The translations under genes were made by a program, and so were the position numbers. The notes under the pieces are model-generated. The model had not been told where the DNA came from. It did no database searches and saw nothing but the letters and a program-made list of their open reading frames with translations. A stretch of 64,000 nt of DNA from Pseudarthrobacter siccitolerans (lineage in GTDB: Bacteria; Actinomycetota; Actinomycetes; Actinomycetales; Micrococcaceae): assembly GCF_030823375.1 (NCBI RefSeq), contig NZ_JAUSXB010000001.1, positions 4,092,001 through 4,156,000 on the forward strand, in the 5' to 3' direction. This document shows positions 59,584 through 62,988 of the stretch, in pieces; positions within the stretch are counted from its first letter, which is position 1; every line of letters begins with the position of its first letter.

Positions 59584-59632
59584 GAACACACTGCCTGCAC
59601 CTGCCAAAACAAATACCTGGTATGCAAATTTC

Positions 59633-59662
59633 TTGGCGGCTTTATAACGCTACGGTTACAGT
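59633..59662 (+). promoter_or_regulatory. rpfB promoter
   Basis: TTGGCG (59633-59638), 18-bp spacer, TACAGT (59657-59662) in an A/T-richer segment after the tatD stop. The transcript would start near 59669, leaving about 195 nt of leader before the rpfB start. Confidence 0.6.
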
Positions 59663-59668
59663 GGAAAA

Positions 59669-59864
59669 CTATTAGCCGGGGTCGGGGAAGGCCACCGGAT
59701 AAGTTCACTCCACTTGCAGCTTGATATGCCGGCCTTGTTCCGGCCTGTCCTCTACTAGGAGTGTGGCGGCGCGACGGTGCCCGGACTACCCCTCCCTGGA
59801 GGCGTGCCCGGGCATTTTATTGCGCTCTCCCCGTGCCCGGACAGGACTAAAGTTACGGGCAATC
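59669..59864 (+). ncRNA. Structured rpfB 5' leader (candidate RNA switch)
   Basis: The leader contains GCCGG…CCGGC (59728-59744) enclosed by CACTCC (59706-59711) paired with GGAGTG (59758-59763), then a terminator-like hairpin and three copies of GTGCCCGG (59777-59784, 59804-59811, 59833-59840) that could pair in alternative ways. An RNA switch with an intrinsic terminator controls the rpfB-ksgA-ispE operon of M. tuberculosis; this leader has the same position and architecture but no sequence-level equivalence is claimed. It does not match the ydaO/c-di-AMP class. Confidence 0.55.
59778..59821 (+). terminator. Intrinsic-terminator-like hairpin in the rpfB leader (attenuator candidate)
   Basis: TGCCCGG (59778-59784) pairs with CCGGGCA (59808-59814), with a nested CCTCC-CT-GGAGG stem in the loop (59791-59802), and TTTTATT follows directly (59815-59821). 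It lies 43 bp before the rpfB start, so it would stop transcription before the coding sequence unless rearranged. Confidence 0.65.
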
Positions 59865-61034
59865 GTGGTCAAGTTCTTTACAACGGACGGCAAGTTCAGC
59901 TTTTTCAAGGTTGGAACCCAGCTTCTGGTGCTTTGTGCACTGGTGGTGGGTCTCGTAGCTTTCGTGGGCAATAACAAAACCATCACGCTGAACGTTGATG
60001 GCAAGGTGACTTCCGTTCAAACCTTCGGTGGCACAGTGGGGCAGGTCGTCAAAAGCGCCAACCTCGAACTGAAGCCGGCGGACCGCGTCTCCCCGGCCAT
60101 CGACGCCACCGTCCAGAACGGCACGGTCATCAACGTCAACCAGGCCAAGGAAGTCAAAGTCAGCCTTGACGGCTCCGAGAAAACGGTGAACACCACCGCC
60201 CAGGACGTTGAAGATCTGGTCACCGAGCTCGGTGTCGCAAGTGCATCGTCCGTCTCGGCCCCCAAGGACGCCCAGCTGGCAGTGGCAGGATCCTTCGTCT
60301 CCATCTCCACCCCCAAGGCCGTCAGCATCGTTGCCGACGGCAAGGTGCAGGCGGCTACCACCACCGCCGCCACCGTGGGCAAGGTCCTGGAAGATGCGAG
60401 CCTGACCCTCGGCGCCAACGACCGGTCCTCCCAGCCCGCCAATGCCCCCGTGGTCAACAACATGGTGATCAAGGTCTCCCGTGTGGATACCGGCCAGACC
60501 GCGGTGACCAGCGAGGAAATCGCCTTTAAGAGCGAAATGGTCGAAAGCGCCGAGCTTTTGAAGGGTGAAAAAGAAGTCACCCAGGCCGGTTCCGCCGGCA
60601 AGGTGGAGAAGACCTACAAGCTGGTCCTCGTGGACGGCCGCGAAGCGTCCCGCACGCTGGTCACCGAATCCGTCACCGCGCAGCCGGTCACCGAGAAGAT
60701 CACCGTAGGCACCAAGCCCAAGCCGGTGGCCCAGGCCGCCCCCGCAGCCAGTGCCGGTGCCAACACCGGTGCCGCCGCCCCGGCCATGATGAACGAAGCC
60801 ATGTGGGACAAGATCGCCCAGTGTGAATCAGGCGGAAACTGGTCCATCAACTCGGGCAACGGCTACTACGGCGGCCTCCAGTTCGACATCCGGACCTGGA
60901 TCGGATCAGGCGGCGGCGCGTACGCCCCGAACGCCAGCCTCGCCACCAAGGCCCAGCAGATCGACGTCGCCAACCGCGTCTACGCGCAGCGCGGCCTGCA
61001 GCCCTGGGGCTGCGGCTGGGCTGCAAGCAGCTGA
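59865..61034 (+). CDS. rpfB: Resuscitation-promoting factor RpfB-like
   Basis: Secreted or membrane-tethered lytic transglycosylase-like enzyme that cuts peptidoglycan and stimulates regrowth from dormancy. 389 residues. The N-terminal membrane anchor is at about residues 16-35. Then come three DUF348 repeats (first at ITLNVDGKVTSVQTFGGTVG), a G5 domain (about 205-285), a Pro/Ala linker and the C-terminal Rpf catalytic domain of about 75 residues beginning AMWDKIAQCESGGNW, with the catalytic Glu in CESGG. Start GTG at 59865; the frame is open upstream across the leader but without an initiation signal. Confidence 0.94.
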   Translation: MVKFFTTDGKFSFFKVGTQLLVLCALVVGLVAFVGNNKTITLNVDGKVTSVQTFGGTVGQVVKSANLELKPADRVSPAIDATVQNGTVINVNQAKEVKVSLDGSEKTVNTTAQDVEDLVTELGVASASSVSAPKDAQLAVAGSFVSISTPKAVSIVADGKVQAATTTAATVGKVLEDASLTLGANDRSSQPANAPVVNNMVIKVSRVDTGQTAVTSEEIAFKSEMVESAELLKGEKEVTQAGSAGKVEKTYKLVLVDGREASRTLVTESVTAQPVTEKITVGTKPKPVAQAAPAASAGANTGAAAPAMMNEAMWDKIAQCESGGNWSINSGNGYYGGLQFDIRTWIGSGGGAYAPNASLATKAQQIDVANRVYAQRGLQPWGCGWAASS

Positions 61035-61156: not shown

Positions 61157-62029
61157 GTGACTGAACCCATCCCCGCCGCGCCCGCACCGCTGTTTGGTGC
61201 CTCCGACATACGCCGGCTGGCGGAAGAGATCGGTATCCGCCCCACCAAGACCCTGGGCCAGAACTTCGTGATCGACGGCAACACCATCCGCAGGATCGTG
61301 GCCGCGGCCGGTGTTGGACCGGACGAAACAGTGCTGGAAGTGGGCCCCGGCCTCGGGTCGCTGACCCTCGGCCTGCTGGACGCAGCCGCCGGCGTGGTGG
61401 CAGTGGAGATCGACCCCGTACTGGCCGCGAAGCTCCCGGAAACCGTCAAGGAATGGCGCCCCGCCGCCGTCGGAAGCTTCCATCTGGTCCAGGCGGACGC
61501 CATGAAGGTCACGGAACTCCCCGTGCGGCCCACCGCGTTGGTGGCCAACCTGCCCTACAACGTGGCCGTGCCCGTTGTACTGCACCTCCTGCAGCATTTC
61601 CCCAGCCTCCAACACGGACTGGTGATGGTCCAGGACGAGGTAGCTGACCGGCTCGCCGCACCTCCCGGATCCAAAACCTATGGCGTGCCCTCGGTGAAGG
61701 CGGCCTGGTACAGCAGGATGCGCAAAGCCGGCGTCATCGGCATGAACGTCTTCTGGCCGGCACCCAAGATCCACTCCGGGCTGGTGTCCTTCACCCGCCA
61801 TGAGCCGCCAGCCACCACCGCCACCCGCGAGCAGGTCTTCGCCGTGGTGGATGCCGCCTTCGCGCAGCGCCGCAAGACCCTGCGCGCAGCCCTTGCCGGC
61901 TGGGCAGGCAGCGCCCCGGAGGCGGAACGCTGCCTGGTGGCTGCCGGCGTGGACCCCACAGCCCGTGGCGAAGTGATCGACATTACGGCCTTCGCGAGGA
62001 TCGCCGAAGCCCGCGAGGCCCGCCCGTGA
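61157..62029 (+). CDS. rsmA: 16S rRNA (adenine(1518)-N6/adenine(1519)-N6)-dimethyltransferase
   Basis: KsgA: dimethylates A1518 and A1519 late in small-subunit assembly. 290 residues. SAM motif [15 protein letters not shown] (about residues 60-74), substrate motif [10 protein letters not shown], and [10 protein letters not shown] near the C-terminus. GTG at 61157 follows TAGGAT (61145-61150) by 6 nt, so it can be transcribed independently of rpfB. Coupled to ispE by a 4-bp GTGA overlap. Confidence 0.96.
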
Positions 62030-62988
62030 ACGCCCTCCCGGGACGGTTCGCCGCCAGGAGCGTCCGGGCAAAGGCGCCGGGAAAGATCAATGTTTCCCTG
62101 GACGTCGGGCCGCTGCGGCCTGATGGCTACCATTCGGTGGCCAGCGTGTACCTCGCCGTGTCCCTGTACGAGGAGGTGGCGGCCACCAGCACCGAAACAC
62201 CGGGGATCACCGTCAGCCTCAGCCCGGACAGCACCCTGGACCTGGACGCCGTCGATATCCCCTTGGACGAGGACAACCTGGCGTACAAGGCGGCAGCCAT
62301 CATGGCGGACGTCTCCGAGCGCACAACAGGCGTCCACCTGGAGATCACCAAACGCGTACCCGTGGCAGGCGGCATGGGTGGCGGCTCAGCGGACGCCGCG
62401 GCAACCCTGCTGGCCTGCGACGCACTCTGGAACAGCGGCCTCTCCCGCGAGGAGCTGGCCCACCTGGCTGCGGAGCTGGGCGCCGACGTCCCCTTCTCCC
62501 TGCTGGGCGGGACCGCCGTCGGCCTCGGGCTGGGCGACGAACTTTCCCCGGCCCTGGCCAAGGCGCAGACGGACTGGGTCCTGGTCACGGCCGACTACGG
62601 ACTCCCCACCCCCGAGGTGTACAGGACATTGGACAGGTTGCGGGCCGCGGAAGGCATCGAAGGTGCCGAGCCCACCGGCGTGGACCCGCAAATCCTCACC
62701 GCCCTCCGCGGCGGGGAGGCGGAAGCGCTGAGCCGCGTCCTGGTCAACGACCTCCAGCGGGCAGCCATCGAGCTGGCACCTTCATTGCGCGATACTCTGG
62801 GAATCGGTGAATCCCATGGTGCCGTTGCAGGGATCGTCTCAGGCTCCGGCCCCACTGTGGCACTGTTGGCCGATGATGCCGTTGCCGCAGAAGGCCTGGC
62901 GGAGAAGATGCGGCGCTACGGCTTGACGGCCCTCGCTGTGCACGGCCCCGTTCCCGGGGCACGCATCATCTCCGACACCCTCCTTTAG
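62026..62988 (+). CDS. ispE: 4-diphosphocytidyl-2-C-methyl-D-erythritol kinase
   Basis: GHMP kinase of the MEP isoprenoid pathway, phosphorylating the 2-hydroxyl of CDP-methylerythritol. 320 residues. Substrate motif [21 protein letters not shown] near the N-terminus (cite parts [12 protein letters not shown] and RPDGYH), ATP loop [17 protein letters not shown] (about residues 108-124) and C-terminal [13 protein letters not shown] at 62026 overlaps the rsmA stop. Its product feeds the prenyl diphosphates used by the cis-prenyltransferase at 14 kb. Confidence 0.96.

Follow-up and report, generated by a model that had tools for sequence, protein, structure and literature searches.

RpfB is a resuscitation-promoting factor. 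In translational riboswitches and leaders built from mutually exclusive helices, one strand occupies a set position ahead of the start codon. The closest described system is the rpfB switch of Mycobacterium tuberculosis, which, in the parts of the report of Schwenk et al. 2018 (PMC6009663) that describe it, is limited to a subset of pathogenic mycobacteria and consists of a 130-nt leader having two alternative folds, an intrinsic terminator as output and an unknown ligand. A second relevant system is the c-di-AMP (ydaO) riboswitch RF00379, which is described in the pertinent sections of PMC9960051 as controlling actinobacterial cell-wall hydrolase genes including rpfA/rpf1 and may act on translation.

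The window analyzed here is a 64,000-nucleotide stretch of Pseudarthrobacter siccitolerans DNA in which the leader is flanked by a TatD-like DNase gene (stop 59583) and rpfB (GTG 59865), with ksgA and an ispE-like gene following. As in the published description of the M. tuberculosis switch, a leader with two (here predicted) alternative folds precedes rpfB-ksgA-ispE, an assignment made here by gene order and Pfam domains. Unlike the M. tuberculosis terminator, again as published, the features conserved here are a 5' element plus a start-proximal 3' element, and these are found in other actinobacteria. The genes and promoter features are:

59865 to 61034, + strand: rpfB (Pfam: three DUF348 domains, G5 and a transglycosylase-like domain)
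61157 to 62029, + strand: ksgA (Pfam: 16S rRNA adenine dimethylase family)
62026 to 62988, + strand: ispE-like GHMP kinase gene (Pfam GHMP kinase domains; the name ispE is by synteny)
59633 to 59662, + strand: promoter TTGGCG, 18-nt spacer, TACAGT (extended layout TTGNCN-N18-TACNNT; from the sequence and kept in relatives)
59644 to 59659, + strand: MtrA-like direct repeat ATAAC-N6-GTTAC in the promoter spacer (from the sequence; assigned to MtrA by likeness to published sites)

The preliminary description had proposed a promoter at 59633-59662. Its coordinates and sequence stand, with TTGGCG at 59633-59638 and TACAGT at 59657-59662, and relatives retain the TTG..N18..TACNNT layout, but a generic promoter scan found none and gave TTGGCG-N18-TACAGT no score. 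The direct repeat between the -35 and -10 boxes, which reads GTCAC-N6-GTTAC in many relatives, looks like a putative MtrA site because MtrA direct-repeat sites given in the relevant part of PMC5650626 are similar. The GTCAC/ATAAC-N6-GTTAC repeat is also found in leaders that lack the RNA element (L059, L062, L063, L065, L112, L115, L118 and L119).

By chance criteria alone the leader fold and its terminator-like site are unimpressive. The fold gave z = -1.05, with 29 of 200 shuffled sequences as good, and one terminator-like site was found versus 0.6 expected. The whole leader as query, however, matched 184 of the 395 genomes of the family and 14 of the 32 genera, with sharing widest at approximately 59644-59699. 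Sequence comparison indicates that the leader is real and conserved, and suggests that its conserved part is not the terminator. As had been reported previously, GTGCCCGG occurs three times in the leader (59777-59784, 59804-59811 and 59833-59840), and TTTTATT (59815-59821), 43 nt ahead of the rpfB GTG at 59865, comes directly after a hairpin (59778-59784/59808-59814). The third GTGCCCGG copy, nearest the start codon, is found again in other genera, and the 30 same-genus leaders retain the first. The RNA features considered below are:

59675 to 59698, + strand: 5' element GCCGGGGTCGGGGAAGGCCACCGG (conservation; permutation test of the local hairpin)
59676 to 59698, + strand: local hairpin (HP) within the 5' element, 59676-59683 paired with 59690-59693 and 59695-59698 (permutation test)
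59676 to 59688, + strand: 5' arm of the long-range helix (LR), 59676-59680 and 59683-59688 (cognate-partner test, RNAalifold and pair counts)
59828 to 59840, + strand: 3' element TCCCCGTGCCCGG, the 3' arm of LR, ending 24 nt before the start codon (conservation and cognate-partner test)
59708 to 59761, + strand: helix P2, 59708-59711 paired with 59758-59761 (RNAalifold, 30 same-genus leaders)
59769 to 59825, + strand: helix P3, 59769-59773 paired with 59821-59825, enclosing the hairpin 59778-59784/59808-59814 and TTTTATT 59815-59821 (RNAalifold)

The two elements were found by aligning leaders on the rpfB start. Both lie ahead of rpfB in at least 21 actinobacterial families, with numerous soil actinobacteria among the carriers, and the leader middle between them varies in sequence and length. 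When simple patterns were applied to 282 rpfB leaders, a count that includes near relatives and some loci twice, 200 had both elements, 50 had neither, 24 had only the 5' element and 8 only the 3' element. A fixed stricter rule detected both elements in 59 of 69 leaders from the family, 8 of 22 from the order and 43 of 79 from the class, and thus many class-level rpfB leaders are without the element. The same rule found both elements in 19 of 2020 shuffled stretches and in none of 47 coding stretches. A tight family-form pattern (at most one mismatch) matched 14 of 297 order genomes; the window's family accounted for 13, and the remaining genome matched with one mismatch.

A scan of named genomes with the 5' motif gave at least 117 matches. 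Among the matches listed, 95 were followed on the same strand by rpfB at a distance of 83-282 nt, these including Arthrobacter, Pseudarthrobacter, Specibacter, Kribbella, Jiangella, Phytoactinopolyspora and a Kineosporiaceae MAG. The other 22 listed matches were evenly divided between those with fewer than 600 bases downstream (11) and those with room but no rpfB (11); tatD was just upstream in seven of the 22, all within the short-downstream group. A record titled Acidobacteria bacterium isolate G2_11 (L296; cf. L037, from the window's family) carries the element and rpfB and is probably a misnamed MAG. The idea of a second copy in the genome was rejected, the search having returned one exact 18-mer and, allowing up to three mismatches, 50 matches in all versus 38 for the reversed control.

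Pairing was analyzed in representatives hand-picked among loci that carry the 5' element. Of the 50 chosen, three were dropped by rule (L041, L144 and L173, although L041 does carry TCCCCGTGCCCGG) to leave 47, and because all were chosen for the 5' element the sample measures pairing rather than prevalence. The 47 rows comprise 21 family labels plus Kribbella and the Kineosporiaceae MAG, each counted as a separate family, so that a label may occur twice. The starts of the 5' and 3' elements are 52-245 nt apart in these representatives, and the gap from the end of the 3' element to the start codon is 20-24 nt in 44 of the 47 and 12-14 nt in the other three. Note that the rpfB start was assigned to the first ATG or GTG that lay 12-45 nt further on and was preceded by a purine-rich triplet, which may blur some rows. 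A reading frame beginning at the GTG inside the 3' element was rejected, as the spacing from that GTG to the rpfB start is not consistently a multiple of three. Six loci from several genera (L044, L052, L054, L056, L058 and L061) have a further stretch resembling TTGGACGTTCCGTTCGTACGCCCAA between the elements that could form a hairpin; no such stretch is present in the window's genus. In family f45 (L298, L299 and L303) GAGGCCCGG replaces GTGCCCGG in the 3' element, and GGAGAATCGTG is found at the start.

In LR, CCGGG-GU-CGGGGA complements UCCCCG-UG-CCCGG with a 2x2 mismatch, and this R-U/U-G mismatch is nearly invariant. If LR is real, each 5' arm should suit its own 3' arm better than foreign arms. 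Across the 47 representatives own partners gave -20.7 kcal/mol versus -18.5 kcal/mol with the partners of other families, and none of 20,000 permutations did as well. The same result (0/20,000) was obtained with the distal half alone, the invariant CCGGG/CCCGG being omitted, and outside the window's family (29 rows) 3 of 20,000 permutations matched the distal half. With one row per family (23 rows) the largest p value was 0.007 when the full arm was used and 0.005 when only the distal half was. Own partners had already been better (32/20,000) under poorer rules for the 3' element, which placed wrong sites in several rows. Individual rows are instructive: the LR arms of L109 read CGAGAC/GUCUCG, and in L177, L308, L323 and L326 each arm is without its half of the C-G pair next to the mismatch.

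Pairs were also counted in the 29 distinct spliced rows among the 35 representatives of standard length, the 12 representatives of other lengths being left out. Five LR pairs had changed on both sides, a value reached in 4 of 500 shuffles; the covariation score was reached in 3 of 500 and the number of cells with a two-sided change in 11 of 500, while further pair types were not above shuffles (161/500). Cells of LR were paired in 86.2% of cases versus 23-59% in slid versions, although the version slid by -2 had a covariation score (0.112) nearly equal to that of LR (0.117). The proximal half (CCGGG/CCCGG) had wobbles and a few mismatches in these 29 rows but no two-sided changes, and hence a pseudoknot in which the hairpin loop pairs with the 3' element would suit many rows as well. 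Given no hint, RNAalifold drew LR, P2 and P3 for the 30 same-genus leaders. Since LR is invariant there, this set gives conservation and no covariation for LR; three of the four P2 pairs had a two-sided change in at least one sequence. HP also fits its own partners better than foreign ones, with 0 of 20,000 permutations as good and a largest p of 0.010 with one row per family. The preliminary description had looked to covarying pairs among relatives to define a class: such covariation exists and does define one, as found in a check run without R-scape, but in helices other than those it named. Together the comparative data leave the existence and structure of an rpfB leader element well supported.

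In 46 of 47 representatives the predicted HP and LR have 3 nt or more of the 5' arm in common. In 17 of the 47 the predicted LR also takes 2 nt or more of the HP 3' strand, in some cases through weak outer pairs. On these predictions HP and LR compete for the same 5'-arm nucleotides. When each state was forced the mean energies were -84.2 for LR and -83.9 for HP, with LR lower in 27 of 47, and in unforced folding the mean pair probability exceeded 0.5 for LR in 22 of 47 and for HP in 10 of 47. Note that the forced run imposes every predicted duplex pair, weak outer ones included, and so understates LR in some rows; the window, for example, gave -85.3 versus -89.7 in a separate window fold. There LR is the minimum (-89.7), and a representative LR pair has a probability of 0.92. 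HP costs 4 kcal/mol over LR in the window and has a probability of 0.008. As judged from the alignments and modeled folds, the leader would thus have the conserved alternative pairings tied to an expression platform that are asked of a small-molecule riboswitch.

That the output is rpfB translation is suggested by the near-fixed distance of the 3' element from the start codon despite the variable spacing of the two elements. Two exclusive pairings with one strand fixed ahead of the start codon are also what translational riboswitches have, although unlike them the conserved core here consists of two separate parts, a hairpin at the 5' end and a remote 3' strand, joined by a middle whose length varies. 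One further structure was predicted when HP was forced:

59834 to 59861, + strand: putative alternative hairpin between the 3' element and the pre-start region, 59834-59839 paired with 59856-59861 (HP-forced fold)

This hairpin between the 3' element and the ribosome site gave -6.7 kcal/mol versus -4.9 kcal/mol for shuffled letters and was better in 34 of 47 representatives, but no covariation of the pairing was found in the 47 (9148 of 20,000 permutations as good). The ribosome-site region was predicted to be slightly more open in LR (0.420 versus 0.373 in HP, p = 0.027), whereas predicted opening of the start codon did not differ significantly between the two states (p = 0.28) and that of 59856-59867 in the window was nearly equal (0.375 versus 0.344). 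Given such small differences in opening and a ribosome site that does not covary, the direction of control is a guess, leaning toward LR as the ON state.

The reading we favor, with moderate confidence, is that HP and LR exchange in a cis-acting leader RNA switch that controls rpfB translation. Judging from the -10 box, the rpfB mRNA would start a few nucleotides upstream of the 5' element, whose 5' arm would then pair either locally as HP or with the 3' element near the rpfB start as LR. Exchange of the two in the cell presumably takes place with rpfB translation as its output. We speculate that formation of HP would free the 3' element (UGCCC) to pair with the ribosome binding region and turn rpfB off, that formation of LR would release the ribosome binding region, and that the near-invariant R-U/U-G mismatch might be where a signal, either a small molecule or a protein, acts. 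An MtrA-type regulator at the promoter would add a second layer of control.

Control could also run with the opposite sign, LR being a stable repressing helix positioned on the upstream border of the ribosome footprint, with the site freed by HP. The place where the LR 3' arm ends, 20-24 nt ahead of the start in nearly all representatives, and the minimum-energy standing of LR in the window are consistent with this, but the ribosome site is not part of LR and its surroundings are slightly more open when LR forms, and we consider the reversed sign rather improbable. A static fold acting on mRNA stability or ribosome standby, with either HP or LR alone mattering in the cell, would agree with the preference of the window for LR; as both pairings pass their own-partner tests and their mean energies lie close together, we think such a fold unlikely. 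In transcription attenuation, as the preliminary description had it, the hairpin 59778-59814 with its TTTTATT would be an intrinsic terminator and the 5' arm would compete for its left arm. The hairpin and U-run are present, but the run reads TTTT in 21 of the 30 same-genus leaders and is broken in nine, the single site barely exceeds chance expectation, the hairpin forms in both predicted states (HP-forced and LR), and the other genera appear to conserve the 3' element, which tracks the start codon, and not the terminator. Some relatives have five U after P3, and thus local termination may occur. The earlier picture of a multi-helix leader with competing partners before rpfB-ksgA-ispE therefore keeps its competing pairings, while the terminator finds no support as their conserved output or as the switch itself, attenuation being a quite unlikely explanation.

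Two further explanations place the function of the 5' element elsewhere. The HP loop GGGGAA and the flanking UAGCCG resemble what we take to be the helix-45 region of 16S rRNA, and ksgA is the gene next after rpfB, so the 5' hairpin could be a mimic through which KsgA regulates its own synthesis. However, GGGGAA is not kept in several families outside that of the window, and among 14 ksgA loci from genomes chosen for having no full RpfB match none had both elements within 1.5 kb upstream (two had the 5' pattern alone and two had an RpfB-like gene in between). The helix-45 mimic was rejected on these grounds, KsgA autoregulation being most improbable, and the link to ribosome maturation drawn earlier is not borne out by those 14 genomes. 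The 5' element might instead be a DNA site for a regulator at the transcription start, since it begins 12 nt after the -10 box within the most widely common leader stretch. We give this very little credence, as changes in the 5' element go together with changes in its hairpin partner and in another element whose distance varies, which RNA pairing predicts.

The leader had also been taken for a diverged form of the M. tuberculosis switch. That switch, in the published account available, belongs to a subset of pathogenic mycobacteria, and four f22 loci presumed to be mycobacterial relatives (L156, L163, L165 and L178) were without the element, three of them (L156, L165 and L178) also by the pattern rule. 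Since these four loci lack the element and none of the 14 ksgA loci has both of its parts, the window element is probably distinct from the M. tuberculosis switch, being set apart from it by published description. The M. tuberculosis rpfB ribosome site GAGGTCGGGGA, as given in part of PMC6009663 (cf. L178), resembles GGTCGGGGA of the 5' element but adjoins the start codon, which looks like coincidence.

Nor does the leader match a family in Rfam 15. At the gathering score there was no match in the window and none in 20 relatives, and around the leader at E values up to 10 a weak YrlB match (E 3.5) stood alone. The c-di-AMP riboswitch RF00379 was considered and rejected, as it gave no match in the window (gathering), around the leader (E up to 10) or in the 20 relatives (gathering). 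The window's genome has four RF00379 matches elsewhere, above the Rfam cut-off (L355, L356, L357 and L358 on contig C1, two of them approximately 1 kb apart). The genes adjoining three of these loci (all but L357) encode an M23 peptidase, an SLT-like protein that falls short of the Pfam cut-off, and a LysM protein whose NlpC/P60 match is sub-threshold.

No description of this rpfB leader element was found in the literature outside subscription papers, preprints and supplements, insofar as its text was available. The terms "rpf", "resuscitation" and "ksgA" are absent from the main text of the motif-discovery papers PMC11109978, PMC8632094 and PMC2864571. In that same literature, as far as its text was available, rpfB control outside mycobacteria is hardly described. 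In the element two definite RNA strands recur through many actinobacterial families, and their natural covariation can guide both probing and the hunt for a signal. It appears to be separate from both the M. tuberculosis switch (by description) and the c-di-AMP riboswitch. As a tentative and doubtful proposal, the nearly invariant CCGGG-RU/UG-CCCGG mismatch in a long-range helix would mark a new riboswitch class of the Actinomycetes that adjusts rpfB translation on sensing a cell-wall or growth metabolite. If so, such a class would set resuscitation from dormancy, beside the c-di-AMP riboswitch serving other cell-wall hydrolase genes of the genome.
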